Shown in pieces: positions 4,601-30,207 of a stretch of 64,000 nucleotides of DNA (position 1 is the stretch's first letter; every line of letters begins with the position of its first letter). The translations under genes were made by a program, and so were the position numbers. This DNA comes from Vulcanimicrobiota bacterium. GTDB taxonomy: Bacteria; Vulcanimicrobiota; Xenobia; Xenobiales; JADMJV01. Under the pieces are notes generated by a model. That model was not told the origin of the DNA. It made no database searches and worked only from the letters and a program-made list of their open reading frames with translations. The DNA lies in the NCBI GenBank assembly GCA_019637395.1, contig JAHBVR010000010.1:186001-250000 (forward strand). Direction: 5' to 3'.

Positions 4601-6126
4601 GCGTCTCCGAACCTGACGTTCACAAGCTTGATCAGGGCGTTGCGATTCGCTTCAATGTCTTTCCCCGCGTGGCTCAGGGTGCCAGCTACTTCGCCTTGGA
4701 CAGCCCCGAAGTCCAACAAGTCGCGGGTCGTAACGGCGTAAGAATTCCTGAGTTGCTCGAATCCTTCGGTCGATCCAGATGCGGCCTTTGCCAAAACAAT
4801 CGTTGCCTCTGGTAGCGACTTACCCAGGGCCGCCGCAAGGTTGGCTGCAACAGGCAGAAGATCTTCGGACTTCTGCTGGAAGCCTTCGAGGATAGCAGTG
4901 GCGTCGACCGCCCCCTGCACGTCAAACGGGGTCTTGGCGGCGAACGACGTTGCGAAGTCCAGCTTGTCCCTGGCGGCCGCGGCGGAGCGAGTCACCGAGG
5001 CCAACTTCTGCTCGAGCTGCTGAAATGAAGAAGCAACGGTGAGCACACCGGCAGCCGCGCCACCGAAGACTGCGGAGATACCTGCAAACCCCAGCGACAG
5101 GTTCTGGAGTATGTTCCCCACCTGCTGGGTGGAGCTGATGACTCCCTGGAGTCCTTTGACGGCGGACTCTGTCAGCCCAGCAGTCACGGACTTCAGGAGG
5201 GGCACCTGGTTGATAAGGTCCGCGTTGGACGCTTTCCACATCTGCAGCTTGGCGGCGATCTCGGCGAAGCCAGAAATCTGGGCGCCAGCTGGGGCGCGAA
5301 GCACTCCCGCCAGCTCCGCTTTAAATTGGGACAGGGCAATCTGTGCGGGCTGAATCGCGCCCTTCAGGCCCTGCTGAGCCGCCTGGCCGGTCTGCGCAAA
5401 CGCGGCCTGCAGACCCTTACTTTGAGCCAGGATGGAAGCGTTTTCCTTCTTGAACTGGCCCAGGGACTGCAGGGCCTGGTTGAAACCCTGCGCCTGCAGT
5501 GCGGGGGTCCCGAGTTGCCCAGATGCCGCAATTTGCTGGCGAATCTGGGCCAACTGCTGGCCAGCACTCCCCGCAATTTGGCGGAGGCCAGCGGACGCTA
5601 CCTGGCCGAGCCGGGTGTAAGAGGCCTGAAGCTGAGGAGAATCTCTCAGCAACTGCTGGTTGTTCCTCGCCCAGCGTGAAAGCTCGACGTTGACTTTAGC
5701 GAAGGCGGCCGCTCGGCTGTTGTCGTTCGCGGAAGAAACGTCCTGAATTCGGTCTTCCAGCCGATAAAGGCCCCTGCTCGCTGCCGGCACCCCGCTACTG
5801 GGGGAGTGGCCTCGGCTACCCGTGCTGTTTTCGGTTGGAGCCGGGGCGGGGGCGGGAAGCCTGGGAATTTGGAGCGGTGGAACCCTGAGCTTGCTGACTT
5901 GGGCGGCGAGTTCCGCGGCCTCCCGTTTGGCTCGAGCGAACTGGGCGGCAAGCCTGGCCACCTCCGCCTGCGCCAGCTTGAGCGGCGCAGTATCACCCGT
6001 TGCGGCCGCGACCGACTGGCTCTTCTTAAGAGTCTCGAGGCTATCCCGAACCTCTTTGTTCGTCTTGTCAAAACTGGCATCCCGCTTTGCCAGAAAGGCT
6101 ATGGTTACGTCGGTTGTGGCGGCCAC
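1624..6126 (-). CDS. Phage tail tape-measure-like protein
   Basis: 1500 residues from GTG 6126, with GAGG about 10 bases upstream. Tape-measure proteins set tail length and are packed in the tail tube. The evidence is great length, near-continuous helical and coiled-coil sequence rich in Ala, Gln and Lys (residues 40-110 and 680-1350), and hydrophobic stretches at about 335-365, 555-600 and 640-675. A TP901-type core is also visible at about 365-480, with ASSFQQLEQKL, then TPFDVQGAV and STEGFEQLRNSYAVTTRDLLDFG. The last 150 residues are Gln/Arg-rich. At roughly 0.15 nm per residue (known for the family) this would suit a tail of about 200 nm. It is odd that no other tail or head gene lies next to it in this window; they may lie left of position 1. 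Family call fairly sure. Confidence 0.82.
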   Translation of the reverse strand: MAATTDVTIAFLAKRDASFDKTNKEVRDSLETLKKSQSVAAATGDTAPLKLAQAEVARLAAQFARAKREAAELAAQVSKLRVPPLQIPRLPAPAPAPTENSTGSRGHSPSSGVPAASRGLYRLEDRIQDVSSANDNSRAAAFAKVNVELSRWARNNQQLLRDSPQLQASYTRLGQVASAGLRQIAGSAGQQLAQIRQQIAASGQLGTPALQAQGFNQALQSLGQFKKENASILAQSKGLQAAFAQTGQAAQQGLKGAIQPAQIALSQFKAELAGVLRAPAGAQISGFAEIAAKLQMWKASNADLINQVPLLKSVTAGLTESAVKGLQGVISSTQQVGNILQNLSLGFAGISAVFGGAAAGVLTVASSFQQLEQKLASVTRSAAAARDKLDFATSFAAKTPFDVQGAVDATAILEGFQQKSEDLLPVAANLAAALGKSLPEATIVLAKAASGSTEGFEQLRNSYAVTTRDLLDFGAVQGEVAGTLSHAGKDIEANRNALIKLVNVRFGDAIARQSATLAGALSNTGDEASSLANKFGSTLLPMATLVTRGFGLLLGAANAIPAPIKAIAAAGLVATAGATALASVILGVGAAALGSLAGLALLQSQLAVTVAELKALEIEAPLASAALSTLNVGVSKAGAAFGSLNVGMAAGIAGNLAFASGVGAIAAVVGTVALSAISDLEKGYVELGDRIRDSSHEFADANRFFRQGVNILNDAGKQVGVTVQIVGSARQQMAQINAAFASLSNDQVVDAFAKAGIGAKQLDDELKKLGVSSNNAKERLRTLAEARNELNRDIPLLSIENKRGSPERFRTVQSQLQENSGIQIADKDDLDAQIASAQKFVATLLQAQTVAQKGKQAYEEIDKPLEKAATSSALLSKFLDLSRQVGTTQALSVAMESVNKQIEENSKKSKIGTDNLDQLITRLANPALRETERAGIEAQIQLIQQRNALVKSQADLEAEAAKKVVDAQDLAFRRRKALGETNLHDELYFTQQRLKAAKEGTDEEVSLLERAAALREQIQSKLSEQASASLRKQLDASRQLVQDAQAGTGSLSVSAALEKAQKDTEKWASANKSLLKQFPELQAELDRFNSSNAIERQREHSKVLKDNLEGIIQPIQTAISESTTGEQKLSAVSNGILAIQRARKAGLLDEAAAQSQLNSLSSQKIALEKQITAEKQRQKLDSIKDNVQINVADSVGSQAQLSAVVAGIDQVNRARDAGDISAEQAKSTLNDLTRQQLGLEKQIAQEKAQAQIQIAGQEAGLLDQELQILQIRKDAGEDVEGQITAAREQALTKRLSIIDQELQAAIDAGQDEVNAAKQASLKKQALMNQETIAEAQELQKRKNNANRIGGSRSPILSGEEAFADLASLDFSLDMTKAPVRKRPTLFPRLNSQPTRLPKTEVPETRLSQIRNDARRNFTPPQQLSDQINQAERAKKEALQEGASRGAQGTRGQQGQGGRQTINYNATVNGTQISASDSRFRDAVITVIKRAHGEAKFKYGV

Positions 6127-13439: not shown

Positions 13440-13633
13440 GCGAACAAGTCTCCCTGTTCCGGTGCTAGCAAGGCGGAGCCGTAGAGTTTGCGCAATGCCT
13501 CGGCCTCGGTCGGACGCGGTAGGTAGACCTCGCCTTCCAGCGCTCGGAGGTTGGCGGCGGATATGCCCAGCTTTTTCGCAGCCTCGGCGAGAGTGAGCTT
13601 GGAGGCCTCGCGGGCCTTCTGCAGGACGCTCAT
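13436..13633 (-). CDS. Xre-type HTH protein
   Basis: 65 residues from ATG 13633, in a TGATG overlap with the primase-like gene. It is a compact Cro/CI-type HTH: LQKAREASKLTLAEAAKKLG, then ISAANLRALEG, then an aliphatic C-terminus. Cro-like proteins of this size in phage operons set the lysis-lysogeny or copy-control switch. Here it is co-translated with the replication gene, which suggests feedback on that operon (inference). Confidence 0.65.
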   Translation of the reverse strand: MSVLQKAREASKLTLAEAAKKLGISAANLRALEGEVYLPRPTEAEALRKLYGSALLAPEQGDLFA

Positions 13634-16380
13634 CAAAACATGTCCTCCACGTCCACGAACTCGGGGGAATTGCTCATCACCGGAAAAGCGCCCCCATTGC
13701 CCCCACCCTCGTAGGATGCCTTTGGCGTATGGCTAAACTCAGGGGGCGACTCAATTCCCAACTGTCCCCAATCGCCCTCAATAGGAAAATCGTCCTCAGC
13801 ACCGCTGCCCCCACTTTCCGGAATTGGGGACGGACTGGGGGCGGCGGTGCCCCCGGACTTTGGCCCGATGGCAAAAGGCTCTGCCGCACTTTGGGGGCGT
13901 GGGGGCGGCTCTGAGGAAGTTAGGTGAGGGGATACCGCGTAGGAGAGCGAGCGCCCCTTGCCTTCGAGCAGACGGACAAAGCCATGCTCCTCCAGGCGGG
14001 CTAGGTCGTGTTTGAGGTCGTCCATGGACTGGACCCCGCCGCGGCCCTTGACCAACTGCCAGAGTGCTCGGGCCTTAAAAGTCTGTTTCCATTCCGCCTT
14101 GGACTGGATCTTCGTGAGGACATACTCAAGGCGGACGTCACGCCGACGCTCAGACGCAGAACCTGAAACTATGCGGATATGCTCGGCATAGTAGCTGAAG
14201 ACCCTGATAGCGGCCTCAACTGTCTCCTCTGAAATGGCGTATTCCCAGGGCGCCCCGGACTCAAAATTTCCCAGAATGTGGAGCAAGCCCGCCAGTTTGA
14301 TGACGTGTTCTTTTGCTCGGGCGCCGAACTCACGACAGGATTCCCAGTATTGGTCTGCGCGGAGCCCCCGTTCAGACCATTCCTGAAAACGGCCCAGGAC
14401 GGCGCTCGCCTTAGAGTTTACTGGAATGCAGTATGGCCGCAACCGTCCTTCCTCGTCGCGGGTAGGGTCGATTCCGAGCAGGTATGTGATCAGGTTGTGC
14501 CAGGCCTCTCGCAGGTCGGCGGGGACTGGCTTGGGGTCGCTCTTGCGGTAGCCAAGCAAACTGTCTGGGTTGTCTAGGAGGAATCTGGCCCAAAATCCTC
14601 GCTCACGCATCTCGACGGATGTGCAAAAACGCTCAAATACGCTGGGCTGAAGCGCGAGCACCATCGTCAGTCTCGGCTCTTCGATGAAGGTTGCTCCTCG
14701 AAGAACCCGATCCGGTCGGTGCGTCTCTCCGCTGAATCCCTTCAGGTAGATTCCAAGGTTGGCGCCTGACTTGCTGGTAGCACTGTATCGACCGGCGGCA
14801 ATCGAGAGTAGGTCACCGGCTTCTGAGTTGCAGCAGGCATAGCGACCGTCATTCGCGTGCAGTCGCTTCTCGAGGCTTTCCGGGGTTGGATCGCTGCTGA
14901 CCAGGCCGACTTCGTTGGTTTGGCCCTCCGGGGTCTCAGCTCGAGCTACAAGCTTGCGCTCAAAGGCGTAAACTGGAGACAGCACGACGTGCATACAACC
15001 TGACTTGCCGGATCCACTCTCTAAGACGGTGTTGAACCATTCGTTTAGGGCAGTGACCGGGCCGCGGCCGCAATCCACGACTTGGCGCTTGAGCGAAGCG
15101 ATCGACGCCGTCCCCAGCACCAGGCTCGCTGCATAACTGGCCGGGACCTGAAACGCTTCTGCCACCGCCAGGGCGAAACGACGGGCCAGCGGTGGCAGTG
15201 CGTCGATGGGGAATTTGGGCTTAATGACTGGAGCGTCCAGCGGGACCGGCTTCTCCCAATTAAGTTGAGGCTCTGGGGTGTCCAAGAGGTCTCCTGGCGG
15301 GTGGCCACTCTCTGGGCCGTCTTCTGAAAAAGGGAGAATCCGCCGGTAGTCCTCCGGTTTCATAGTGGTGATGGCGAGACCGGCCAACATCGCATCGTCG
15401 ATGCCTTTCGGTCGGGCGTCTTCAGGCAACTCGGCTCCCCAGACCTCGACGAGGAGCTCGAAGCCCAGCTGCTGCTGAAGGTATTGGAGCCTGCCGAGCA
15501 CGGAGCGGATGCGCTGGGCGACCTCTGGCTTGAAGAAGTCCTGGTCGGGCGTAAAGAGGACCGTGGCCGGCTGGATCTCCCGCAGCATCTCTTCGACCTG
15601 GTTACTCGCCATTGAGCCTACGCCGGCGCCAGCTGCAATTGCGGGGATGCCGGTGCGTTCGGCCGACCCGAGGGCTTTGAACGCCCCTTCGCAGATCCTT
15701 ACGACGCCAGGAAGAATCTTCGTTGTGGCAGGTCGCCAGTATGTGGCTGGGGCGCCGGGCCCGGGACCGCCGTGCTTTGCGCTTGAAAACCAGCGGTAGC
15801 GGCTATCGCCCGCCTTGACTTCGTCCAGTCGCAACTGCACCGAGATGACTTGGCCCTGAAGATTGGAGCCGAAAACCATGAGCCCAGAGGAGGCGGCCAG
15901 ACGAGCAGTGCCATTCTCGTGGGCGTAGAAGCCTGGGACCGCCTGCCAGAAGTTAAAGAGTCCGGCTATGTGCTGAGCAATGGTGCTACGCACGGACGCT
16001 GCGGCGTGCATAGTCCTGAATCCATAGGCCCGTATCGCAGCAATTGATAGGCCTCGCGCGACAAGGGCGGCCTCGTGCTCGGCAGAGAGGCTTAGTTGAC
16101 ACTGCAGCTCACGATAGAGGCGGTCCAACCTGTCAGCGTCTGCGCGGACGGCAATGACAGCTTCTGTAGCCTGAAATGTCGGCTTGGGGCGTTCCTCCGC
16201 TGGCGGGTGCACCCAGTAGACTTGGCCCTGGCGATCTTGACGTTCGATGCTGCCGGGGCCGTCTGCGCGATAGCAGTTCACCCCGCCGTCTCCAAACAGC
16301 AGGCACCAGGAGCGTTGCCCGCAGATTGGGCAAGGCTGGTCCTTGGAGGCTTCGGCGCCGGTTCGTTTGCCCTCGGACAT
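13633..16380 (-). CDS. DUF3987-type primase/helicase-like replication protein
   Basis: 915 residues from ATG 16380, in a TGATG overlap with a GGGGG ribosome site. An N-terminal zinc ribbon (CPICGQRSWC ... CYR, about 15-40) is followed by a Toprim/DUF3854-like region (about 220-300) with ICEGAFKAL, IAAGAG and VLFTPDQDF. Next comes a DUF3987-like ATPase region (about 390-720) that opens FPIDALPPLARRFALAVAEA and has the P-loop-like ESGSGKSG. The C-terminal 130 residues are Pro/Ser/Gly-rich and look disordered. Such proteins act as primase-helicases in phages, satellites and integrative elements. The P-loop lacks the first canonical Gly, as is usual in DUF3987. Confidence 0.75.
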   Translation of the reverse strand: MSEGKRTGAEASKDQPCPICGQRSWCLLFGDGGVNCYRADGPGSIERQDRQGQVYWVHPPAEERPKPTFQATEAVIAVRADADRLDRLYRELQCQLSLSAEHEAALVARGLSIAAIRAYGFRTMHAAASVRSTIAQHIAGLFNFWQAVPGFYAHENGTARLAASSGLMVFGSNLQGQVISVQLRLDEVKAGDSRYRWFSSAKHGGPGPGAPATYWRPATTKILPGVVRICEGAFKALGSAERTGIPAIAAGAGVGSMASNQVEEMLREIQPATVLFTPDQDFFKPEVAQRIRSVLGRLQYLQQQLGFELLVEVWGAELPEDARPKGIDDAMLAGLAITTMKPEDYRRILPFSEDGPESGHPPGDLLDTPEPQLNWEKPVPLDAPVIKPKFPIDALPPLARRFALAVAEAFQVPASYAASLVLGTASIASLKRQVVDCGRGPVTALNEWFNTVLESGSGKSGCMHVVLSPVYAFERKLVARAETPEGQTNEVGLVSSDPTPESLEKRLHANDGRYACCNSEAGDLLSIAAGRYSATSKSGANLGIYLKGFSGETHRPDRVLRGATFIEEPRLTMVLALQPSVFERFCTSVEMRERGFWARFLLDNPDSLLGYRKSDPKPVPADLREAWHNLITYLLGIDPTRDEEGRLRPYCIPVNSKASAVLGRFQEWSERGLRADQYWESCREFGARAKEHVIKLAGLLHILGNFESGAPWEYAISEETVEAAIRVFSYYAEHIRIVSGSASERRRDVRLEYVLTKIQSKAEWKQTFKARALWQLVKGRGGVQSMDDLKHDLARLEEHGFVRLLEGKGRSLSYAVSPHLTSSEPPPRPQSAAEPFAIGPKSGGTAAPSPSPIPESGGSGAEDDFPIEGDWGQLGIESPPEFSHTPKASYEGGGNGGAFPVMSNSPEFVDVEDMF

Positions 16381-16553
16381 CAGGCCCCCATCCAAGGCAA
16401 AGCCCAGGAGATAGCCGGCGCGGGGCCCAGGTCGGGCCAGTGATAGGCTGGCGATGAGGTCGGGCGAGGCCGCGAAGCGACCTTACATAGAGCGGCTTCA
16501 AAGACCTGAGAAATTTGTTCTGGTGAGAGCTTGCGCCTGGGGGGCGCAGCCAT
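16380..16553 (-). CDS. Small basic leader protein of the replication gene
   Basis: 57 residues, MAAPPRRKLSPEQISQVFEA..., starting at ATG 16553 and ending in a TGATG overlap with the primase-like gene, so it probably couples that gene's translation. The ATG lies 5 bases from a perfect inverted repeat (16558-16577). The C-terminal half (RPRPTSSPAYHWPDLGPAP) is Pro-rich. No family recognised. Confidence 0.4.
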   Translation of the reverse strand: MAAPPRRKLSPEQISQVFEAALCKVASRPRPTSSPAYHWPDLGPAPAISWALPWMGA

Positions 16554-16557
16554 GCTA

Positions 16558-16577
16558 CAATTGACCTTAGTCAATTG
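16558..16577. promoter_or_regulatory. Palindromic operator candidate
   Basis: CAATTGAC-CTTA-GTCAATTG: a perfect 8-bp inverted repeat with a 4-base spacer, just upstream of the ATG at 16553. The half-site GTCAATTG recurs at 18122-18129 near the start of the excisionase-like gene, and CTTAGTCAA recurs in another inverted repeat at 18299-18313. This suggests one repressor acting at several sites in the element. Confidence 0.5.
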
Positions 16578-16688
16578 GTTTTTGTGAAGGTCGCTGTTCG
16601 AACCAGCGGCCTTCTGTCTTTTGTGGGTCATTGGTTTTTGCTGTCCTTTCGATCGATCAGGGTGTTTTTGGCAAGAGCAAGGCTCGGG

Positions 16689-16961
16689 TTATGAATTGAT
16701 TGGGCCAGCAGTAGGCGGCGCGGGCAGGCCGAACGTGCTGCAGTAGTTTTTGAGGGTCCAGGAAGACCCACAGCCGGCCAGGCATTTGACCAACCTGACA
16801 CGGTCCGTCAGGTCGACTTGAATCACGCCTTGGCAGCGAAGGCAGCGCGCTTGGCCGACGATGCCAGTGGTCAGCCAGCGCCATTCGGGAAGTTCGAATT
16901 CGCAGAACCGCGCAGATTCAGCGCGCAGGTCCATTAGGTTGAGTTCAGGTGCCGCGCTCAT
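16689..16961 (-). CDS. Zinc-ribbon protein
   Basis: 90 residues with CLRC (about 40-43) and CLAGCG (about 60-65) as a likely four-Cys zinc site. The ATG overlaps the preceding stop as ATGA. In replication operons such small zinc ribbons often accompany primases, which fits the zinc ribbon of the 13633-16380 product, but the role here is unknown. Confidence 0.55.
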   Translation of the reverse strand: MSAAPELNLMDLRAESARFCEFELPEWRWLTTGIVGQARCLRCQGVIQVDLTDRVRLVKCLAGCGSSWTLKNYCSTFGLPAPPTAGPINS

Positions 16962-17149
16962 AGGCTGCCACCGGCCTCGAGGTGCTGGCGGACTTTCTCC
17001 ACGAAGACCATCCAGCGCCGGCCAATACGGAACGCAAAGCCCTTTGGTAGTCGATCCGGCACCTTTGCCAAGGCGCCAGGCGGGATGTCGTAAAGCTCTC
17101 CCAATTTGGCCAGGGGGATGGCCTCGGGAAGACCCGACAGCATGTTCAT
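16958..17149 (-). CDS. AlpA/excisionase-like small protein
   Basis: 63 residues from ATG 17149, chosen over TTG 17155 because AGAGGAG lies 7 bases upstream. The pattern IPLAKLGELYDIPPGALAKV, then PKGFAFRIGRRWMVFVEKV resembles the wing-containing MerR-like fold of AlpA/HTH_17 proteins: helix-turn-helix, then a conserved R-x-G-R-R-W/I strand, then a helix. Likely DNA binding, as excisionase or activator. Confidence 0.55.
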   Translation of the reverse strand: MNMLSGLPEAIPLAKLGELYDIPPGALAKVPDRLPKGFAFRIGRRWMVFVEKVRQHLEAGGSL

Positions 17150-17244
17150 CTGCAACTCCTCTATGTCGTTTCCGCAGGGCGGTGACTAGAGTGTGCGGTT
17201 GGTAGCCTGGTGCGGAAAAGACGCGCCAGAATGCGATAAAACGG

Positions 17245-17970
17245 TTAAGAACGTTGAGTATGTCGGACGACAGGCAGCCGCTCTGCTTCCAGCGCCTGGG
17301 ACTTGGTTGGAGCGGTAATGCGGTCCACTGCTGACGAGAAGCGTGGATTTGCCAAGCAAAGCTCTGTCCAGTGGGTCACCCCGAGGGTGAAGAGCTGGCC
17401 CTGACCGATAGCCATGTCTTCTACCTCAATGTCTCGCTGAGCTTTGCAGACAACGCGCTCACCGAGCCGGACTGACTCAGAGATTTCCCCGTCAGCGAAG
17501 GCTGGTAGCGGCACTGGTGGCGAGGCAGGCCCATCGCTGGTGATTGCCAGCACCCTACCGCGGCCAGCCAAGCGGAACGGGTCGACCTTGTGCCACAGGT
17601 TCTGCTCTTTGATCGCTATGTATTCTTCGTCCGTGTAGGGCAGTGCGGACGTTGGCGCTACAACCGCTTGCTCTGGTTCTCGCCCCAGCGCCCGGGCCAG
17701 AAGGCTGCGGAGTTCAAGCCAGTGCTGGTCCGATTTTGCCAGAGCGATCTCAAGAAGCAGCCCGAGAAACTCCCGACTTGCCTGTCGCTTCCGCTCCCAC
17801 CCGCGTATCGTGTCTGCGACAAGCACGGTCGGGACAGGCCGCCCTGTCAGCCGATATTCCGCCACAAGCATTTTGACGTGTTGGTCTAGAGTTTGGAGAA
17901 GGAAGTGTCGTTTGCGCCAATCTCTATAGTTGAACGGAACCAGCGATTTAGGACGGCCACCTTTCCGCAC
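17245..17970 (-). CDS. Unknown protein of the early operon
   Basis: 241 residues from GTG 17970, with GGAGGG about 10 bases upstream. The N-terminal half is basic and helical (RKRHFLLQTLDQHVKMLVAE; IRGWERKRQASREFLGLLLE), which would suit nucleic-acid binding. The C-terminal half is beta-rich (VRLGERVVCKAQRDIEVEDM). No family recognised. It lies between two AlpA/excisionase-like genes. Confidence 0.5.
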   Translation of the reverse strand: MRKGGRPKSLVPFNYRDWRKRHFLLQTLDQHVKMLVAEYRLTGRPVPTVLVADTIRGWERKRQASREFLGLLLEIALAKSDQHWLELRSLLARALGREPEQAVVAPTSALPYTDEEYIAIKEQNLWHKVDPFRLAGRGRVLAITSDGPASPPVPLPAFADGEISESVRLGERVVCKAQRDIEVEDMAIGQGQLFTLGVTHWTELCLANPRFSSAVDRITAPTKSQALEAERLPVVRHTQRS

Positions 17971-17973
17971 AAA

Positions 17974-18159
17974 TTAGCGCCCTCCATCAGCTAGCCATTT
18001 AAGAAGGGCATCTTCCTTCACCCGAATTCGCCTACCAAAGCGTATTATTATGCCGTCTGGCCCGTCTGGTAGGGTGTTCAAGAAGTCGTAGACTGCCGGC
18101 AATTTCATTTGGAGTGGGCCGGTCAATTGTTCTGCAGTCAACAATTTGGGAATTGACAT
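17974..18159 (-). CDS. Excisionase/AlpA-like (HTH_17) protein
   Basis: 61 residues: LLTAEQLTGPLQMKLPAVYD, then IIIRFGRRIRVKEDALLKWL. This is the standard HTH_17 layout: HTH, then R-F-G-R-x-I-R-V, then a C-terminal helix. Such proteins direct excision with a tyrosine integrase or activate early genes. It is the first gene of the minus-strand operon, divergent from the integrase 418 bases away, the usual place for a recombination-directionality factor. Confidence 0.7.
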   Translation of the reverse strand: MSIPKLLTAEQLTGPLQMKLPAVYDFLNTLPDGPDGIIIRFGRRIRVKEDALLKWLADGGR

Positions 18160-18576
18160 TGTTGAGGATCCTCCGTCTCATGCAGGCTTGGACTGGGCCG
18201 AATTTGGGCAACAAGAAAGCAAGCCTATCGAAATTTTGTCGGGTATGCTGAGCGACACGGTTGGGTCTGAGAGTTTAAAGGGATTTGCTAAGACCTTCGA
18301 CTAATTCTTAGTCAAACCGCCTGAGCCCCATGAGAACCAACCGACTCTCTCTCCCTCCTATTAACCCAGGCTCTGACGCTTACCTACGGAGTCCTCAGTC
18401 TAAATCGTAGTATATTCGTCACAATCGACCAACTCAGTAAAGCTTAATCAAACCAGACAGACTGAACAGAGAAAACCGAGCTAAAAGGGGTGTTGTATCG
18501 GCAAGATTGCTACTCGAATTTAGGAAGCAAATTCTCCTTGGCCCGCGAAATCGGAAAGCATTAGGAGGGAAGTTTC
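18160..18576. other. Divergent control region between excisionase and integrase
   Basis: 417 bases without a gene and more AT-rich than its surroundings. It holds an inverted repeat GACTAA-TTC-TTAGTC (18299-18313) sharing CTTAGTCAA with the 16558-16577 palindrome, and several A/T-rich stretches that could be promoters in either direction. Its right end carries a strong AGGAGGG ribosome site for the integrase. Early-gene promoters and integrase arm sites are likely here by position, but I cannot pin them down. Confidence 0.4.
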
Positions 18577-19773
18577 ATGGCAATCGACAGACGAGGTCCT
18601 CAACGTTATCGAATCAGGCTTCCGCTTGGTTACGATGGCGGAAAACGCGTGGTGCTCACAGAGACGGTTCACGGGACAAAGAGGGAGGCGGAGGCCCGTC
18701 ATCGGGATCTGCAATCCGAGCTCGAGCGGGGCAACCTGACACGGCGGTCCAAACGCTCATTGAACGAGTTTCTCACTGAATGGCTGGCTACAGCGCAAGG
18801 CCGGCTGTCAGAGCGGACACATGAAGAATACTGCGGCTTGGTGGGTCGCTACATCAAGCTCAAGCTTGGCCGGCACAGTTTGGACAAGCTCACCGCCTTC
18901 TCGATCCAACAGTTTTACAACGACCTGCTGCGCAAGGGGCTGTCCGCTCGGACGGTGCGAACTGTGCACACGGTGCTATCTCAGGCGCTCAAGGCCGCCG
19001 TGAAACTCAAAATGGTCCCAATCAACCCCAGTCGGGACGTCGAACTGCCGAAGCACAAGCAACGCAGGGTTCTGCGAGCCATGGACGTCGACCAGGCCAG
19101 GAAGTTCATCCTGGCGAGCCACGTCCACCTCTGCGGAGCAGTGTTCCGGACGGCCATCGAACTCGGTCTGAGGCCTCAGGAATACTGTGCGCTGGAATGG
19201 TCGGACCTCAACTGGGAAACGGGCGAGATGATGGTCGACAAAGCCATGACGTGGCCAAAAGGCGGCGGGTGGCGCATAAAGGCCCCGAAAACAGAGCTAA
19301 GCCGGCGAAAAGTTGTTCTTTCGCCGACTCTGCTTGAGGATCTCCGCCGCCACCGCACCAGGCAGGTTGAGCTGAAGCTACTTATGGGGCCTGAATGGGA
19401 AGACGCCGGGGACTTCATCTTCACCAATACCTTCGGGCGACCGCTGACGGTGTGGACCCTCAACTACAACTACAAGGCCATCCTCAAAGAGGCTGGCCTT
19501 GCGGAAACGTTTCGGGTCTACGATTTGCGCCACTCGGCGGCCACCCTTATGCTAGCCGGAAACACTCCACCTAAGGTGGCCGCAGATCGCCTTGGACACT
19601 CCACGATTCGACTGACGATGGACACCTACTCCCATGTGATGCCGAGCATGCAACAGGAAGTGGCCAGCAAGTTTGAGTCACTACTTCATGGTGTCCAAGG
19701 ACACGCTCTGGACACGGAGCAAGTTCAGCCAACTCCAGCTAAGCTGCACCGAATAGTAGGGAAAGCCAGGTGA
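18577..19773 (+). CDS. int: Tyrosine recombinase / phage integrase
   Basis: 398 residues, after AGGAGGGAAGTTTC. It joins the attachment sites of the element and the chromosome. The N-terminus is an AP2-like arm-binding region (1-60). A SAM-like core-binding domain (about 62-150) has LNEFLTEWLATAQGRLSERT. The catalytic domain (about 165-370) shows Arg in ELGLRPQEY, the YDLRHSAATL box, LGHSTIRLT, and the Tyr nucleophile in MDTYSHVMP. It lies at the right end of the element, pointing to the attachment site 90 bases downstream, and is divergent from the excisionase-like gene. Confidence 0.95.
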   Translation: MAIDRRGPQRYRIRLPLGYDGGKRVVLTETVHGTKREAEARHRDLQSELERGNLTRRSKRSLNEFLTEWLATAQGRLSERTHEEYCGLVGRYIKLKLGRHSLDKLTAFSIQQFYNDLLRKGLSARTVRTVHTVLSQALKAAVKLKMVPINPSRDVELPKHKQRRVLRAMDVDQARKFILASHVHLCGAVFRTAIELGLRPQEYCALEWSDLNWETGEMMVDKAMTWPKGGGWRIKAPKTELSRRKVVLSPTLLEDLRRHRTRQVELKLLMGPEWEDAGDFIFTNTFGRPLTVWTLNYNYKAILKEAGLAETFRVYDLRHSAATLMLAGNTPPKVAADRLGHSTIRLTMDTYSHVMPSMQQEVASKFESLLHGVQGHALDTEQVQPTPAKLHRIVGKAR

Positions 19774-21729: not shown

Positions 21730-22866
21730 ATGAGCCTGCTTTCGCCCGCCGAATTGGCGCGCTACGACCGCCATCTCAACCTTCCCCAAGTGGGCCGTGA
21801 AGGTCAGGAGAAACTGAAGGCGGCGCGCGTGCTGATGGTTGGCGCCGGCGGATTGGGCAGTCCGCTGGGACTCTACCTGACCGCCGCCGGAGTGGGCTGT
21901 CTGGGCGTCGTCGATTTTGACCTGGTGGACGAGAGCAATCTACAGCGACAGATCCTGCACGGAACCAAAGACATAGGCCGCCCTAAAGTCGACTCGGCTC
22001 GCGAGCGTCTGGCAGACCTCAATCCGCATTTGGAGTTGCGTACTTACGATCAAGCTCTGACCGCTGAGAACGCCCTGGATATCCTCAAGGATTACGACGT
22101 GGTGGTGGATGGAACGGACAACTTCGCCACACGCTACCTGGTCAACGACGCCTGCGTGCTGTTGGCGAAGCCCAATGTCTACGGATCGATCTTCCGATTT
22201 GAAGGGCAGGTTTCGGTTTTTCATCCGGCCGGGGGCGGACCTTGCTATCGCTGTCTTTACCCGGAGCCGCCGCCGCCCGGTATGGTGCCGTCCTGCGCCG
22301 AAGGAGGGGTGCTGGGCGTGTTGCCGGGGGTGGTAGGTAGCCTGCAGGCCACCGAGATTCTCAAGTTGATTCTGGGTACCGGCCTGTCCTTGCTCGGCCG
22401 TTTGTTGCTCTTTGACGCGCTGGCCATGCGCTTCCAGGAACTCAAGTTGGCCCGCGATCCCAACTGCCCTCTGTGTGGCGAGCGCCCGACCATCCGCCAA
22501 CTGGTAGACTACCGGCAGTTTTGCGGCGTCCAGGAGCCGGCTGGAGCGGAAGTCACACCCTTAGAGTTCGTCCAGCAATGGCGGCAGGGGCAGCATCCTC
22601 TGCTGTTGGACGTGCGCCAACCACACGAATGGGAGATTGCCAACCTGGAAGAATATGGAGCCCGGCTGGTCCCCTTGGATCTCCTGGCCGAACATATAGA
22701 GACGTTGGATCCCCAGGCAGACATCGTGGTCCATTGCAAGTCAGGCGGACGCAGTGCTAAAGCCCAGGCCCAACTGCGGGCGGCCGGCTTCAGCCGGGTG
22801 CGCAACTTGAGCGGCGGAATTTTACGCTGGAGCGACGAGGTGGATGCCGCCAAGCGGAAGTACTAG
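21730..22866 (+). CDS. moeB: MoeB/ThiF-type adenylyltransferase with C-terminal rhodanese
   Basis: 378 residues from ATG 21730, with AAAGGA upstream (the frame is open to 21709). It adenylates the C-terminus of a ubiquitin-like sulfur carrier for molybdopterin, thiamine or tRNA thiolation. Visible features are YDRHLNLPQVG at the N-terminus, the nucleotide loop VGAGGLGSPLGLYL, D-x-D in VVDFDLVDESNLQRQ, DGTDNF, zinc Cys pairs (CYRC and CPLC), and a rhodanese domain (about 285-375) with LLDVRQPHEW and active-site loop HCKSGGRS. The fusion supplies the sulfur itself. No carrier protein gene is nearby. Confidence 0.88.
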   Translation: MSLLSPAELARYDRHLNLPQVGREGQEKLKAARVLMVGAGGLGSPLGLYLTAAGVGCLGVVDFDLVDESNLQRQILHGTKDIGRPKVDSARERLADLNPHLELRTYDQALTAENALDILKDYDVVVDGTDNFATRYLVNDACVLLAKPNVYGSIFRFEGQVSVFHPAGGGPCYRCLYPEPPPPGMVPSCAEGGVLGVLPGVVGSLQATEILKLILGTGLSLLGRLLLFDALAMRFQELKLARDPNCPLCGERPTIRQLVDYRQFCGVQEPAGAEVTPLEFVQQWRQGQHPLLLDVRQPHEWEIANLEEYGARLVPLDLLAEHIETLDPQADIVVHCKSGGRSAKAQAQLRAAGFSRVRNLSGGILRWSDEVDAAKRKY

Positions 22867-24398
22867 CGCACGGATTGGAGCAAGGCGATATCGACCACTT
22901 CCGGAAAGCCTTTGGCCTGGACCGGGGGACGCGGTTGATTTATGAACTCGCTGTGCGGTAGCAAGTCCGAGAGATATTTGCTCAGGATGGTCTCGCCGGG
23001 TCCGGCGGCTGAACACAGGCGCGCGGCCAGATTGGTGGTCGAACCTAGAGCGGCGTATTGTAGATAGCTCTCGTGACCGATAGTGCCCACGTAAGCGCGC
23101 CCGTGATGAATACCGATGCCCACCTGGCAGGGTAGGTCCGGCCATTGATTGGCGAAATCGCGCACCGCCTGATGGATCTCGATGGCCGCCCGGCACGAGT
23201 GCAGGGCTTGTTCGGCCGGGCTCATTTCCAGGGGAGCGCCCCAGATGGCCAGCATGGCGTCGCCGATGTATTTTTCCAAAGTGCCCTCGTGGCGAAAGAC
23301 AATGGGCACAATCCGCGAGAAATAGTCGTTGATCCAGGAAGCCACTTTGGCGGGCGGCTGTTCGTAGCTGATGCCCGTGTAGTTGCGAATATCGCAAAAG
23401 AGAATGGTCACGTCCATCTCGGCGCCCTGCAGATAAGTGCCGTCGGAGCGTGCCAGGATGCTGTTGATGGCCGAGGGAGGGAAGAAGCGCGCCAAACGGT
23501 CTTTGAAGAGCGCTTCTTTTTGCGCTTTCACCGACAGCCAGCCGTTTTCAATAGCAACTGCAGCCAAAGCAGCGAATCCACCCAAAAATTCCTGTTCGGT
23601 GGTATTGGTTAGAGCTTTGGGCTGCAGACTATCCAGGTAGAGCACCCCCCAAATCCGGTTGGAGGTGGCTAGCGGCAGGCCCACGCAGGTGCGAATGTTC
23701 TGCAATTTGATGCTCTGGGCGTTTTCCACGCGCTGGTCAAGCTGGGCGTCTTGAATGATCAGAGCTTCCCCGCGCAAAACCTGCTGGAGCACGGTTTTAC
23801 TCACCTCGGCCGGAGCCTGTCCCCGACTTTGGCGGCGGCGGTGGTGAAGAAACTGGCTGGGCTGGTCGGGATCGACCACCCAGATGGAAGCCCGGTCAAA
23901 ACTGCCCAGGCGCAGGGAGAAGTCCAGGATTTCGTCCAGCTTGTCTTCCAAGGCGCCCGGACGGGCCAGAGCAGCGGAAAGGTGGAGCAGGCCCTGCTGA
24001 CCGACCAGGTTTTCCCGAGTGCCGGATTTGATGTCAGGAATCGGCTTGACGGCGAAGGTCTTGGTTCCCAGCACCGTCTGTTGGCCCGCGGAAGCGGGCG
24101 GAGCGGCCGTGCCGGTCGCCAATTGAATGTGGTCACCCGGCTGCAGGCGGGCACGCACGATCCGTTTGCCGTTGAGGAAGGTGCCCTCCGGGCTGCCCAG
24201 GTCACTCAGGATGACCCCCAGCTCATTCCGCTCGATGCGCGCATGCAGAGGAGCGGTGCGGGGAACGACCAGGTCGCACTCCTGGCCGCTACCCACCGTC
24301 ACGCTGTTGCTGCTGAACTTGTAGGCCCGTTGGGGAAGATGGGGCTCCCCACTGGGGGTCAAGACCAGAGTCGCCCCTTCCAGACTAAAGATGAGCAC
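22863..24398 (-). CDS. FHA-GAF-class III nucleotide cyclase
   Basis: 511 residues from GTG 24398; longer frames run into the preceding gene. Order: FHA domain (about 20-95; VTVGSGQECDLVVPR, LHARIERNE, GTFLNGKRI) for phosphothreonine binding, GAF domain (about 150-290), and class III cyclase (about 320-490; VTILFCDIRNYTGIS and KYIGDAMLAIWG give the two metal Asp). It likely makes cAMP or cGMP in response to a kinase-controlled partner and a GAF ligand. The ribosome site is weak, and the start is 16 bases after the VWA gene, so the two are probably one operon. A CRP-type site at 56791 is a possible downstream target. Confidence 0.85.
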   Translation of the reverse strand: MLIFSLEGATLVLTPSGEPHLPQRAYKFSSNSVTVGSGQECDLVVPRTAPLHARIERNELGVILSDLGSPEGTFLNGKRIVRARLQPGDHIQLATGTAAPPASAGQQTVLGTKTFAVKPIPDIKSGTRENLVGQQGLLHLSAALARPGALEDKLDEILDFSLRLGSFDRASIWVVDPDQPSQFLHHRRRQSRGQAPAEVSKTVLQQVLRGEALIIQDAQLDQRVENAQSIKLQNIRTCVGLPLATSNRIWGVLYLDSLQPKALTNTTEQEFLGGFAALAAVAIENGWLSVKAQKEALFKDRLARFFPPSAINSILARSDGTYLQGAEMDVTILFCDIRNYTGISYEQPPAKVASWINDYFSRIVPIVFRHEGTLEKYIGDAMLAIWGAPLEMSPAEQALHSCRAAIEIHQAVRDFANQWPDLPCQVGIGIHHGRAYVGTIGHESYLQYAALGSTTNLAARLCSAAGPGETILSKYLSDLLPHSEFINQPRPPVQAKGFPEVVDIALLQSVR

Positions 24399-24414
24399 GG
24401 GCCTGTGTTTGCTG

Positions 24415-25461
24415 TTAGTAAGATACCCCCTTCTTGCGAGCTTCGTCTTTGACCTGATTGACCAGCACGGTGTCCAGGTTATTCTCCATCTTGGCCGAAC
24501 GGGCCGGAGCATAAGCGGCTGAACGGTAGCTGGCGCCGCCGCTGGCGCCCGGTGCGCTGACCAGGCCCGAATCCACGTGGCGCTTTTCGGCCAGGGCGTC
24601 AGCGCCGTCGGCCCACCTGGCCTCACTGCTCACCTCATAGGTCTCTTTGCCCTGGAAAACCAGGCGAACTTTGCTGCCGTCCTGACGCACCACTTCTTGC
24701 TGATAGGTCAGAAATTGGAACTGGCCGCCGCCCAACAGGGCGATGTCGGTGAACTCCTGCTGGCCATTGTCCTGCAATCCGCTGCAGCCCCAGGTATTGA
24801 TCTTGATACCTTTGGTGCGGGCATCTTGGACCGGCTTACGAAAATCGTCCCGATAGTGCGGTCCGGCGTCGCCGATCAGGAAAATCATACGCGTGGTGTT
24901 GGCATCTCCGTCCCAATTCATTTCATTGACGGCGCTGTTGAGGCCTTCGGCCACCGCTTCCGGAGTATCTCCCCCCCCACCCGCTTCGATCTGAGCCAGC
25001 GAAGTCTGAATCGTCTCCACCGCCGAAGTCAGCGGGTAGACTTTGGTCAGGTAGGCGTCACCGTGGTCGCGGTAGGCCACCAACCCGAAGCGCACATCCG
25101 GCTTGGGATTGCCCGACTGGATTTCGGTCATCATCTTGCTGACCTTGGATTTGACCACTTCGATCTCGTCACCCATACTGCCGGTGGAGTCGATGGCGAA
25201 GACCACATCAATGCGGGGTGCCGTGCTGGTCACCGCCACCGGGGCGGTCTGGCCGGGACGGCGAGAGGGACTGAAGTGGGCCGCGGCCAGCCCCAGCGCG
25301 ATACCGACCAGCGCGTAGAGAGCCGGCTTGGGTAGATTGAGATTCAGGCCCGAGGGGCGCTGGCCCAGCGTGGACCACAGTAATGATTGGCCACAACGCT
25401 CGCAAGTCTTCTGCGCGTCCGGGTTAACCTGATTGCAGTGGGGGCAAGTGATTCCGTTCAC
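24415..25461 (-). CDS. Zinc-ribbon, membrane-anchored VWA-domain protein
   Basis: 348 residues from GTG 25461, chosen because AGGAGG lies 9 bases upstream. A zinc ribbon (CPHC, CERC; residues 6-25) is followed by a membrane helix (PALYALVGIALGLAAAHF, about 47-64). The VWA domain (about 85-270) has an intact MIDAS: DSTGSMG, a Thr in GGGGDTPEA, and Asp in LIGDAG. The tail is Ala-rich. VWA proteins bind partners through a metal. With the FHA-GAF-cyclase downstream this looks like a signalling pair. The 1547-residue protein is divergent from it. Confidence 0.8.
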   Translation of the reverse strand: MNGITCPHCNQVNPDAQKTCERCGQSLLWSTLGQRPSGLNLNLPKPALYALVGIALGLAAAHFSPSRRPGQTAPVAVTSTAPRIDVVFAIDSTGSMGDEIEVVKSKVSKMMTEIQSGNPKPDVRFGLVAYRDHGDAYLTKVYPLTSAVETIQTSLAQIEAGGGGDTPEAVAEGLNSAVNEMNWDGDANTTRMIFLIGDAGPHYRDDFRKPVQDARTKGIKINTWGCSGLQDNGQQEFTDIALLGGGQFQFLTYQQEVVRQDGSKVRLVFQGKETYEVSSEARWADGADALAEKRHVDSGLVSAPGASGGASYRSAAYAPARSAKMENNLDTVLVNQVKDEARKKGVSY

Positions 25462-25563
25462 GGCTCTGAAACCTCCTAAAAAAGTGGCAGGGGTAGGAGT
25501 GCTGTCGCCTAGTTTAGCAAACTTCTTCCAGGGGAGGAGTTTTTTTTCGAGAAATCGTCGTGA

Positions 25564-28500
25564 GTGGACGCCCAAACCGAAGACTTTGTGCAGGATCTAT
25601 CGGACGAGGCTGTTTTCGATTCGCAAGGAGAGTTCCAGGTCGATCTGGCCAGAGCCAGGGAGAAGTTAGAGCAGCACCTGGGGCTGTGGCCGGAAGATTA
25701 TCTGGCCTTTTTGATTCAGGGAGCCTATGCGCTGGGCGCCTCCAACCTGCGCCTCTCCACCAGTTGGCACAGCCTGCTCTGGGAATTTGACGGGCCGGTA
25801 CTGACGCGGCCCCAGCTCGAAGCCATCCTCAGCGAGGATCGGGGGCTCGCCCTCTCCCAGCCTCTGCAGCGGCTACAAATGGCCTTTTTCTTGCTATCAC
25901 GCAGTCGCTACAAGAAATACACCTTTGCCAGCAGCCTTTCCGGCAATGGCTATCAGATCGAGTGGACGCGAGGGAAGACCTTGCTGAGCAAGGCGCGCCG
26001 GGCTCAACCCTGGGCCAATGCGCTGGAGATCATCTTACCGCTACGGCACATCAGCGTGCACTGGCTGCTCAGCCGCCGCTCGGCCTTGAGCACCCTGCCG
26101 GAGTACGCGGCTGTGCGTCCGCGCTACAAGGATGGTCCCTTGCGTTTGCAGGTCCCCTGGACTCCATTGCCCGATTTCCGCCCGCCCGCGCCTCTGGCTA
26201 TCGCTATCCAGGGCAAACAACGCATGGCCAGCCAGGCTCCGGTGCCTTTTCAGCGTGTGCTGCATCTGACCTCCGAGACCGAGCACTCGCTCTGGTTCGC
26301 GGTGCAGGAACAAGGGCAGCTGCGCTGCCTGGTCTACAGTCTCGGCTACACCGGCCCGGACTGGCAGTACGGTGGAGTCTGGCTGTATTACGATGGCCTG
26401 CGCACCGACCTGGGTCAACGCCAGTTGGTGCACGGGCCGGCACTCCAAAAGCTGATGCATTCGGTCGAGGAGCAAATCGGCCGGGCGCTGCTTCAGGCTT
26501 TCGCCGATCCCGAAGTACGGCAAGAATGCGCCGCCTGGATCTGGCAGAGCTTGAGCCGTTGGCAGGCACAAGGAGGGGGACCGCTGGGTGAAGCGTTGGC
26601 CGAGTTGGCGCTTATCCCCATGGCCTTTCATCCTGATCACAGCTTGAAGCAATTGGATCAACTCTACGCTGCAAGCCAACCCCTTTATTTTTGTGAATCC
26701 GTTCCCCAGCGGCAACCGCCCGGAGCTCCGCCGGTGGTGGTGATGCGCCCGGAATTCGCCAAGATTCTGCGCTCCCGCTTCCAGGAGTTGCGCCCCTGCC
26801 AGGATCTCTTCGAGCAACTGGAAGTGCGTGAGGACAATCGCTTGCAGTGGGTGGGGCGGACTCCCGAAAGCCTGGAGCTGGCTAACGCTCTCCATTCCTT
26901 TGCACTGGTAGAGCAGGGCTGGAAAGGAAACATAGGCTTGCTGGGCGCGGACGTGGCCGCCAAGCTGGACGTTTTCCTGGACCGCAAATGGGTGGCCTCG
27001 CTGCCCCTCGGACAAAAGTTTCCTAAAGGCCTGGTTGGCAAGGTGGAGCATCCGGGTCTGCAGATGAACTCCACCTGGACGGAACCCCAGAAGAACCATC
27101 CGATTTGGGAGGATTTTCTGGCCAGCCTCTGGTCTCGTCTACCGGGCTGGTTTGCCGAACTTCTGCGGGACGGCGGCCCGGAATGGCTGCTGGACCGCGC
27201 CTATGACTTGCTGCTGGCTCCGGGTGTCGATCCAGGTCCGCTCCAGAAAACGGCTTTGATTCCCATCGGTTCTGAGCGAGCGAGTCTGGAGGAGTGCCTC
27301 GGTATTCTTGAGGATGGACGCTGGCAAAGTTGGATTTTACGAGGCTGGATCCCCCGCGACCGCGGCTGGCGCTTGCTGGACCGGCTGGTCGAAGGCGAGG
27401 AGCAGCGCCGGGCCTGGAAAACCCGCCTGGAACTCTACCAGAAGGGGCATGATCTCTGGAAAGACACGCCCCCCCGCCTGGTGACCTTGACCCAACGGGA
27501 CGAATTGGTGGCCTCGGTGGTGTTGCCCGAGGGCCGGGGTGAAATCGGCCTGCGTAGCCTGAAATACAATACGGTGCAGGTGACCGGCTACCGCGACTCC
27601 CGTCGTCTGGGCACGGTCACTTTTCCCGGCTCCCCCATGGCCTTCGGCGGTTTGCCGGAGGGACTGGTGGCCGCCGTGGACCACCCTGACCTCTGGCCGA
27701 ACGGGGATTGGACCGAGGTGACCCCGTCAGGGCCGGGTTGGGAACAGGCCTTGAGCTGGATTTGGGAAGCCGTTCCAGGGTTGGTGGGCCCGGCCATGCA
27801 GGCAGGCGAGGGGTTGCTGGCCGTTCGTCTGTTGGCCTGGCTCCCCCGTGAAAGCTGGCCCGTTCTGGAGGGGGGCGGCGATTTTGTCGTGCGCCTGGAT
27901 GAAAGCGTGGTCACGCTGGCCCAGGCCGTGGCTGCCCTGGAGGAAGGGCCCCCGGTGCGGGTGCTCGAGGATGCAGGGGCGGTGCAAATGCTGGAGGGCT
28001 TTGGGGATGTCTGGCTGATTGCCAAAGAACTGGCTGCCGAACTTCGCTCGATTTGGGGACCGTCCCGGCTGGTGGATGCGCAGAGCGATTACCTATCCTC
28101 CTGGATGGCCGTCGAGCACGGACTCAGCCGCGAGGAACAAGCCGTTCTGCCGGCTGGTAACTGGTTGCTGCGCGAGGCTTTTGAAGGCGGAGAGGCGGGA
28201 TTGCGTCTCCAGCCCGGCGCCGCCAATCGTTGCTATCTGCGCTTGCTGCGCAAAGGCCACCTGTTGATGGAGTATGCCTGGCCGCTGGTGAATGGCCCCG
28301 AATTCACCTCCAGTTTCCGCCTGGAAGTGGTGGTCGATTGGCCGGAGGCTCCGGTGTTGACCACCTTCGCCCAGCTTTGGGAAGATCCGGCGGGCCGCCA
28401 CTGGCTGGAAGATTTGCGTGAGCGCATGCGCCTCTTTGGCTTCGAAACAGGAGCTCCTCGAGAGTTCCTGTGGGAGCGGCTGGCCTTCGAGCAAGACTTT

Positions 28501-30207
28501 TTGTTGGATCTGGATCGGGTGCGCCTGCGCCTGCTCAAGTTGCCTCTCTTCGACATTGACGGTGAGCGTTGGTCCTTGGAGCGGGTGTTGGCCTATGTTC
28601 GGCAGGAGGGACGGCTGGGCTACGTGCTGGGGGATCCGATAGATTCGGGGGCCGGACCCATCCTGTTTTTGACCAATCGCGAACTGCACTGGCTCAAGCA
28701 GCTTCTGGGCCAGTCGCACTTAGCCAATCTATCGCACATTCGCAAAGCCCTGCGCCAGCGCCAGGAAACTACCGACACGCCGGCGCTTCAGGATCTGCCT
28801 CTGCCGACTCTGGACTATCTGGTGGAGGAACGTGAGCCAAATCGCTATTGGGGTTTACAGCGCGAGTTGAACGGCCCCAGTCGCGTGCGCCTGCATCGGG
28901 AAATGCGCCCTCTGGAGGCTCTCAGCTATGATTGGCGCTACCAGGTTCAGGCCAGCCTGAACCTCGACGAATTGCAACTGAATCAAGACGGGCGAGTGCG
29001 CCGTGACGGCGTTTTCCAACAGGCCATCGAGGATCTTCGCGCGGCGGTTCAGGAGGCCATCGTCACCCGAACTCCGGCTCGCTATCGCTTGGAAATGGCG
29101 CTTTGGAGTTGGGGCCTGCAGGAACCCTGGGCAGAGCGACTACAGGCACAACCTCTGCTGAAGGACCCGCGCGGGCAGAGCCTGTCGGTGGCTGATTGGG
29201 TGAACGCCTGGGGCGAAGATGAGGGCAAGCTTCCCTATCTGCTCGAGGAGGAGGACTGGAGCCAGCAACTCGAGATTCTCCCGTCCCGTCTCATCCCTTT
29301 GCTACCCTCCACGCTGGTGGCCACCGCCTCGCGCATGATGCGCGGTTTGCTGGATTACCGCGAGGGCCTTCGCCAGGCCTGGCAATACGTCCACCAGGCA
29401 CCCACCAGGCAGGCGCTCAAGGCCAGTCCGCCGGAGACGGCTGGCCCCCCACTTGGTTGGGGCGCAAATTGCCCGGCTAACAGCAAGCGGGAATGGAGCC
29501 AGTTTGCTGGCGACCGACCCCAGGATGGGGGGCAATTTGCGGCCAGCTACCAATCGGAAACGCGAGACCTGAAAATCTACGCCGAGTTCGATTGGGTGGA
29601 GCAGCACCTGGTGATTCTCTGGCGCGGCCGCGAGGTCCACCGGCGCTCGCGCCAGCAGTGGCCCGGCTATGTACTGGAGGTGGACTGGAGCGAACGCCTG
29701 CTGGGACAGGCCTGGCCGGATTGGGCCGAAGTGACACCGGCCCTTGCCGCCTACTGGAGATTTCTCCATCGCTTCCTGCAGCAACCGGATTTGTTGGAAG
29801 AGCGTCTGGACGAATGGGAGGCCCTACCCGTGGACGCTCAATCCGGGCCGATTCCCGTCTATTTCGAACCGACCGAGGCCGACCTGCGGCTGCTGCTGGC
29901 TCGCCGCAAAGCCGAATGGCTCGGGCGTGCTCGAGGAGTCTATGCTCCGGTGCAACGGATCTGCGAACACTGGTGGGGCTGTCCCGTGGAAGTGGAAACG
30001 GAGAGCGGTGAGTGGCCGCTGCGGGTGGCCGAGTCGGATGGCTCCCGGCGCCTCTATCTCAATCCCGGTCACCGCTGGTTCCAGGGTCGTTCCGCCGAAC
30101 TGATGGCCGTGCGCGTCCTCTACTGGCTGGCCGGACGTCAGCCGGGCCGGGATTCGCTACGCAAACGCAACGAAATCCTGGGCCAATTGGGATATCTTTC
30201 CGATTAA
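25564..30207 (+). CDS. Giant protein: possible GHKL-like N-terminus plus recurring units
   Basis: 1547 residues from GTG 25564. Residues 45-85 (DYLAFLIQGAYALGASNLRL, then LLWEFDG) match the spacing of the N and G1 boxes of Hsp90/GHKL ATPases (ELxxNAxDA ... DxG), but the Asn and second-box residues are altered, so catalysis is doubtful. I find five roughly 70-85-residue units of one kind near residues 455, 659, 879, 1104 and 1334. The first two align best: GNIGL/GEIGL, GLVGKVEHPGL/GLVAAVDHPDL, STWTE/GDWTE and LPGW/VPGL. No signal peptide or membrane helix. It is divergent from the VWA/cyclase pair. I recognise no characterised family; a large scaffold or sacsin-like protein is a guess. Confidence 0.7.
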   Translation: MDAQTEDFVQDLSDEAVFDSQGEFQVDLARAREKLEQHLGLWPEDYLAFLIQGAYALGASNLRLSTSWHSLLWEFDGPVLTRPQLEAILSEDRGLALSQPLQRLQMAFFLLSRSRYKKYTFASSLSGNGYQIEWTRGKTLLSKARRAQPWANALEIILPLRHISVHWLLSRRSALSTLPEYAAVRPRYKDGPLRLQVPWTPLPDFRPPAPLAIAIQGKQRMASQAPVPFQRVLHLTSETEHSLWFAVQEQGQLRCLVYSLGYTGPDWQYGGVWLYYDGLRTDLGQRQLVHGPALQKLMHSVEEQIGRALLQAFADPEVRQECAAWIWQSLSRWQAQGGGPLGEALAELALIPMAFHPDHSLKQLDQLYAASQPLYFCESVPQRQPPGAPPVVVMRPEFAKILRSRFQELRPCQDLFEQLEVREDNRLQWVGRTPESLELANALHSFALVEQGWKGNIGLLGADVAAKLDVFLDRKWVASLPLGQKFPKGLVGKVEHPGLQMNSTWTEPQKNHPIWEDFLASLWSRLPGWFAELLRDGGPEWLLDRAYDLLLAPGVDPGPLQKTALIPIGSERASLEECLGILEDGRWQSWILRGWIPRDRGWRLLDRLVEGEEQRRAWKTRLELYQKGHDLWKDTPPRLVTLTQRDELVASVVLPEGRGEIGLRSLKYNTVQVTGYRDSRRLGTVTFPGSPMAFGGLPEGLVAAVDHPDLWPNGDWTEVTPSGPGWEQALSWIWEAVPGLVGPAMQAGEGLLAVRLLAWLPRESWPVLEGGGDFVVRLDESVVTLAQAVAALEEGPPVRVLEDAGAVQMLEGFGDVWLIAKELAAELRSIWGPSRLVDAQSDYLSSWMAVEHGLSREEQAVLPAGNWLLREAFEGGEAGLRLQPGAANRCYLRLLRKGHLLMEYAWPLVNGPEFTSSFRLEVVVDWPEAPVLTTFAQLWEDPAGRHWLEDLRERMRLFGFETGAPREFLWERLAFEQDFLLDLDRVRLRLLKLPLFDIDGERWSLERVLAYVRQEGRLGYVLGDPIDSGAGPILFLTNRELHWLKQLLGQSHLANLSHIRKALRQRQETTDTPALQDLPLPTLDYLVEEREPNRYWGLQRELNGPSRVRLHREMRPLEALSYDWRYQVQASLNLDELQLNQDGRVRRDGVFQQAIEDLRAAVQEAIVTRTPARYRLEMALWSWGLQEPWAERLQAQPLLKDPRGQSLSVADWVNAWGEDEGKLPYLLEEEDWSQQLEILPSRLIPLLPSTLVATASRMMRGLLDYREGLRQAWQYVHQAPTRQALKASPPETAGPPLGWGANCPANSKREWSQFAGDRPQDGGQFAASYQSETRDLKIYAEFDWVEQHLVILWRGREVHRRSRQQWPGYVLEVDWSERLLGQAWPDWAEVTPALAAYWRFLHRFLQQPDLLEERLDEWEALPVDAQSGPIPVYFEPTEADLRLLLARRKAEWLGRARGVYAPVQRICEHWWGCPVEVETESGEWPLRVAESDGSRRLYLNPGHRWFQGRSAELMAVRVLYWLAGRQPGRDSLRKRNEILGQLGYLSD

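Follow-up and report, generated by a model that had tools for sequence, protein, structure and literature searches.

The gene at positions 25564..30207 (plus strand) of the window, the whole 64,000-nucleotide stretch of DNA that was analysed, encodes a 1547-residue protein. We read it, with a probability of about 0.6, as a catalytically dead member of the sacsin/Hsp90-type GHKL proteins, which carries a repeated transducer arm and would work as a non-hydrolysing subunit or scaffold beside an intact ATPase. The anatomy itself, a degenerate GHKL domain followed by repeated transducer-type units, is very probable. That this gene in particular works through such a partnership is a more tentative proposal, with the odds somewhat against it.

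The ORF starts with a GTG codon and is a conserved, working gene under purifying selection, since each of the five genomes of the genus holds a full-length orthologue (59-88% identity) and comparison with three of these orthologues gave dN/dS values of 0.065, 0.096 and 0.114. These values ruled out a reading as pseudogene. Known families were of little help: the protein had no match in Pfam at E up to 1, nor in NCBIfam and PADLOC. Neither a SACS or P_loop_sacsin domain (Pfam, NCBIfam) nor PF00183 (Hsp90/HtpG) was found. No membrane span was suggested, the maximum 19-residue Kyte-Doolittle mean being 1.36, and no relatives were detected among viral contigs and plasmids.

Residues 1-180 had matches in dozens of further ORFs of these genomes. 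The iterated profile built from the N-terminus had a core of ~300 positions and gave 62 matches in the protein's own genome (7.66 Mb, 36 contigs). They correspond to about 45 distinct genes, counted with matches within one ORF merged and one giant sacsin-like ORF left out; two of these genes look broken. We refer to them as the dead-GHKL family. Its core was present in 14 of the 148 sampled genomes of the phylum, 13 of the 14 belonging to one class. Taken singly, family members yielded weak hints of an affiliation (HATPase_c at 0.014, a histidine-kinase model at 0.0012, sacsin at 0.052).

The link was provided by short, intact GHKL genes of the same organisms, which a search with the N-terminal model of sacsin had recovered. 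The dead-family profile matched their proteins at 98.7% (E 1.9e-16) over 253 columns, covering both the GHKL domain and the domain that follows it. Without the clade of the window protein, hhalign still gave 98.7% over 251 columns, with a score of 117 against a maximum of 18 in column-shuffled controls. The window clade in turn matched the remaining dead family at 99.8%. Alone, it had no detectable link to the intact GHKL proteins (0.6%), so its GHKL homology runs via intermediates. The earlier note had seen a GHKL-like start with altered residues, and this two-step profile chain (E 3e-30, then 3e-16) bore it out, confirming at the level of sequence the homology of the N-terminus to GHKL plus following transducer. 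Structure did not contribute: AF2 on residues 1-345, with only 4 orthologue sequences, reached a pLDDT of 37 and the model was not interpreted. Direct searches of PDB sequences with the core and unit profiles returned nothing significant. Through its homology to the intact proteins via paralogue family A1, the degenerate GHKL domain was placed at residues about 5-200 (25576..26163, plus strand as all features of this gene; boundary approximate).

Members of the family also occur in other contexts. The dead-GHKL core is fused to TPR arrays at L102:4022-7171 and L087:2747-4423, and by eye it looks fused to beta-propeller-like repeats in L044. A separate observation concerns L090:3603-10811, a giant protein (about 2400 aa) of sacsin-like type, in which an intact ELLQNAEDA box occurs together with an HDGLPFD box.

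Downstream of the GHKL domain, the 1547-residue protein contains a repeated unit, and this unit is, as judged by profile homology, the domain that normally follows a GHKL domain, repeated without its ATPase. An iterated unit profile seeded with units 2 and 3 only found copies in every long family member, the best reversed or shuffled decoy reaching 0.32. In the window protein it delimited unit 2 at residues 436-537 (26869..27174), unit 3 at 640-748 (27481..27807), unit 4 at 858-956 (28135..28431) and unit 5 at 1087-1166 (28822..29061), spaced by about 200-230 residues. A partial copy (276-315) was matched immediately after the GHKL domain. It belongs to unit 1, the post-GHKL domain in transducer position, at residues about 205-315 (26176..26508). 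When the profile was made from the units of other members only, the four downstream copies were recovered at E 2e-5, 2e-3, 1e-2 and 2e-4, with the best decoy at 1.2. Compared with each other, units 2 and 3 gave 98% (E 4.5e-14) and units 3 and 4 gave 70%.

The assignment of the unit as a repeated post-GHKL domain follows from two observations: the second, post-GHKL half of the core profile matched downstream sites in the family members L045, L046 and L047, and a comparison of the downstream units with the domain behind the GHKL domain in short dead paralogues gave 95% (E 2.4e-8). Compared with the intact transducer alone, the units gave 32% with a score of 26, the null maximum being 12. The GHKL half was not found inside the units, which gave 0.1% when compared with the intact GHKL half. 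The segments between the units had weak support as belonging to the repeat, and we did not retain them.

The fold of the unit pointed in the same direction. The AF2 model of unit 3 (residues 632-760; four units from four orthologues) had a pLDDT of 84.9 and a pTM of 0.79. It is built from five strands plus one long helix, and the W-T-E stretch lies in the loop that precedes this helix. The exact wording of the motif in the earlier note, W-T-E...W-x-x-x-L-x-x-x-W, holds for units 2 and 3; the other units do not follow it. In a Foldseek search of the PDB, all 50 of the 50 matches listed were GHKL ATPases or complexes containing one, including MORC2/3/4, GyrB, ParE, topo VI and HtpG. The best among them was MORC3 (E 0.0087, probability 0.97). 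The strength of this result lies in its one-sidedness and in no single match, since none of the listed matches fell below E 0.001 and query TM-scores ranged from 0.26 to 0.47; the matched part of the targets was not shown. In a viral structure library, topoisomerases and RIIA proteins were among the weak matches listed. By this fold match, the modelled units would be domains of the transducer/Hsp90-middle type.

Of the five recurring units previously claimed, four (436-537, 640-748, 858-956 and 1087-1166) were thus recovered, whereas the one near residue 1334 had no significant match in any profile and was abandoned. Just before this place sits an in-frame hairpin-forming repeat of about 126 bp (29421..29546), a dispersed element that adds 40 residues (about 1287-1326) while keeping the frame. 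These residues are absent from four orthologues. Relatives of the element with 75-90% identity occur at about ten places in the genome, among them contigs C32, C13 and C1, and its predicted fold is very stable (-66 kcal/mol). Palindromic repeats insert into genes in other bacteria, and the element is similar in style. The protein ends in a region with an LYLNPGH motif (residues about 1430-1547, 29851..30204), which to the eye resembles the ends of other long family members. A C-terminal domain common to this family and the intact partners is likewise visible by eye; hhalign gave 6% for it and we do not claim it.

The idea of a partnership with an intact ATPase stems from the gene neighbourhoods of relatives. 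In the sampled genomes, 36 intact short genes of the sacsin type were considered. In 16 cases the next same-strand downstream match was a dead family member, and in these 16 pairs the domain starts of intact and dead gene lay 1.4-1.9 kb apart. By our estimate, such adjacency would be expected by chance at well under 1%, given about 45 dead genes and the size of the genome. L021 and L022, the closest long relatives of the window protein (28% identity), have an intact GHKL gene in their vicinity: in one genome it adjoins in convergent orientation, in the other it lies at a distance of about 5 kb. No intact GHKL gene lies next to the 1547-residue gene itself, and most of the about 45 paralogues have no intact GHKL neighbour. 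The genome has about 3 short intact genes and about 45 dead ones, which disfavours a one-to-one partnership. The family might form a new class of asymmetric GHKL machines, in which an intact short sacsin-type ATPase would join a dead partner that in its long forms bears a multi-copy transducer arm, the ~45 paralogues, expanded in a single bacterial lineage, serving as interchangeable client adaptors for a few ATPases and the window protein being among the longest of them; we regard this as possible, yet rather doubtful.

Two further loci deserve mention. An intact GHKL gene (534 aa), with same-size matches in 5/5 genomes of the genus, lies in the run L089:4765-10630 together with an AAA+-like gene (L089:7911-9566) and, by eye, an actin-like gene; no dead partner adjoins it. 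An apparent intact-dead fusion in G006:C346 (a 1919-aa frame) has N bases between its parts and was not counted as a fusion.

The gene has two divergent neighbours, as the earlier note had described and as Pfam and synteny bore out. The first encodes a zinc ribbon and VWA protein (24415..25575, minus strand, VWA by Pfam, likely true start near 25464) and the second an FHA, GAF and class III nucleotidyl cyclase protein (22863..24626, minus strand). Both adjoin the 1547-residue gene in 5/5 genomes of the genus. Between the VWA and GHKL genes, the short intergenic stretch holds a terminator-like stem-loop with a T run (25519-25542). Among the neighbours, Pfam recognised VWA, cyclase, ThiF, TonB receptor and TPR domains; a MoxR or nuclease neighbour was not found. 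Near one end of the window, a DUF3987 protein (13633-16395, minus strand) and a tyrosine integrase (18577-19773, plus strand) probably mark an integrated mobile element spanning 13633-19773, and a 1500-aa ORF (1624-6126, minus strand) had no Pfam match.

The conserved adjacency to VWA and cyclase genes is one argument for a stand-alone signalling scaffold, in which the dead GHKL domain and the units would act as binding modules of a local unit with these two proteins, with no ATPase partner at all. The lack of an intact GHKL gene beside the window gene and beside most paralogues would agree with such a scaffold, as would the TPR fusions, arrangements in which binding modules are often found. 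The adjacency did not, however, extend to the family. Of the 20 other neighbourhoods covered, none apart from the orthologue's own contained a VWA or cyclase gene, and in two genomes of another genus the homologues of the VWA gene were encoded on different contigs from the dead-GHKL genes. We therefore rejected a VWA/cyclase link for the dead-GHKL family in general; in this sample, none was seen outside the one locus. Long relatives are, moreover, coupled to intact GHKL genes. We consider the stand-alone scaffold unlikely.

In the N-box equivalent of the window protein, FLIQGAYA (residues 49-56, 25708..25731; ELIQNAxD in intact relatives), the catalytic Glu, the Mg-binding Asn and the Asp are all replaced (F49, G53 and A56). 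The G1-box equivalent FDGPVL (residues 75-80, 25786..25803; DTGEGM in intact relatives) retains the Asp and has lost the second Gly. The Mg-binding Asn was present in 0/29 members of the dead family examined in alignment and the catalytic Glu in 3/29, and in the second glycine box (G-x-x-G-x-G) conservation of the glycines was lost. By comparison, 10/10 intact relatives examined had ELIQN-x-x-DA, D-x-GEGM and GxFGIGF with small changes. A further catalytic residue is Arg 474 in sacsin and Arg 380 in Hsp90 (PMC9880540). By our reading, the equivalent of the loop that carries it would be EHTLTRDN in the intact proteins and RTDLGQRQ in the window protein, and an Arg occupied this column in 2/29 dead members. 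With Asn absent from 29/29 and Glu from 26/29 members, the N-terminus of the protein is a degenerate GHKL domain and probably not an ATPase. An alternative would be a very divergent nucleotide-binding GHKL domain, whose altered motifs still bind ATP, as some pseudokinases do, and so switch the arm. The FDG box retained its Asp in 22/29 and its Gly in 28/29 members, and a similar HDGxPF box occurs in the giant sacsin-like proteins that these genomes encode, both of which would fit residual binding. The losses just listed argue against it, and MTOPVIB is a known degenerate GHKL fold without ATP binding (PMC11077084). We therefore hold ATP binding by this domain to be improbable.

Participation in an anti-phage or conflict system, a kind of system known to include class III cyclases as well as ATPase domains of sacsin-like type, is very improbable: the ATPase domain of the intact partners matches PADLOC TmtA models, the neighbouring cyclase matches PycC and the dead-GHKL family shows a large lineage-specific expansion, but the two matches concern generic catalytic domains, the 1547-residue protein has no PADLOC match, the locus keeps its synteny throughout the genus and is not mobile, and the MoxR AAA+ protein that accompanies vWA in vWA-MoxR ternary conflict systems (PMC7159879) is absent from the neighbours, as is a nuclease.

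For the preferred reading, the following picture may be drawn. The N-terminal, presumably Bergerat-like domain has lost the residues for Mg-ATP hydrolysis. It is followed by a transducer, the domain that normally couples to ATP, in the position of the Hsp90 middle domain or sacsin sr2, and by four more copies of it, the five transducer-type modules making up a long arm. This arm may offer several binding surfaces for clients or partners, and the dead head may still form GHKL-type contacts. The protein would so work as a non-hydrolysing subunit or scaffold with an intact sacsin-type GHKL ATPase encoded elsewhere. In what is the weakest step, its state might be passed on to the divergent VWA and FHA-GAF-cyclase proteins. 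The large chaperone-like scaffold of the earlier note would fit a degenerate sacsin/Hsp90-type GHKL domain with repeated transducer-like domains.

Comparison with known systems revealed likenesses, but also differences. The SIRPT repeats of sacsin (sr1 GHKL and sr2 middle-like; PMC3629688, PMC9880540; Pfam SACS PF25794) have, as the window protein does, a GHKL domain and then an Hsp90-middle-like domain. Both are very long proteins made of low-similarity repeats, with an FDG/HDGxPF-like box. In sacsin, however, GHKL domain and follower are repeated together three times, whereas the window protein has one dead GHKL domain and five copies of the follower only. Sacsin reportedly keeps its catalytic residues, in contrast to the window protein, which also lacks a SACS or NF047352 match. 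The short intact sacsin-type GHKL proteins (HATPase_c_3 / NF047352, e.g. L087:9607-11157) are homologous through the GHKL and the following domain, and their genes often lie immediately upstream of those of dead members. They differ by their intact ELIQN, DxGEGM and GxFGIGF boxes, their length of mostly 490-570 aa and the lack of repeated units. With Hsp90/HtpG (PF00183), the window protein has the plan of GHKL and middle domain in common, although the profile comparison of the dead family gave a non-significant 5.7% and HtpG is separately encoded in the genome. As regards the transducers of MORC, GyrB and topo VI B, entries of these proteins were the ones best matched by the unit model among the matches listed, with low TM-scores and no sequence match; neither a catalytic site nor further MORC or topoisomerase domains were found. 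MTOPVIB provides a precedent for a dead GHKL protein without ATP binding that is the binding subunit of a complex (PMC11077084). It belongs to an unrelated lineage, its partner is SPO11 and no repeated transducer was reported for it.

In the systems known to us, GHKL transducers are single domains bound to one ATPase. If our reading is true, an Hsp90/sacsin-like machine would here be built in a new manner, with a transducer repeated without its ATPase, in an expanded family with dead GHKL heads and with intact partners in operons. The architecture of the 1547-residue protein could help to separate the role of the transducer from that of ATP, and the small bacterial two-gene pairs would be material for studying the mechanics of sacsin-type proteins.
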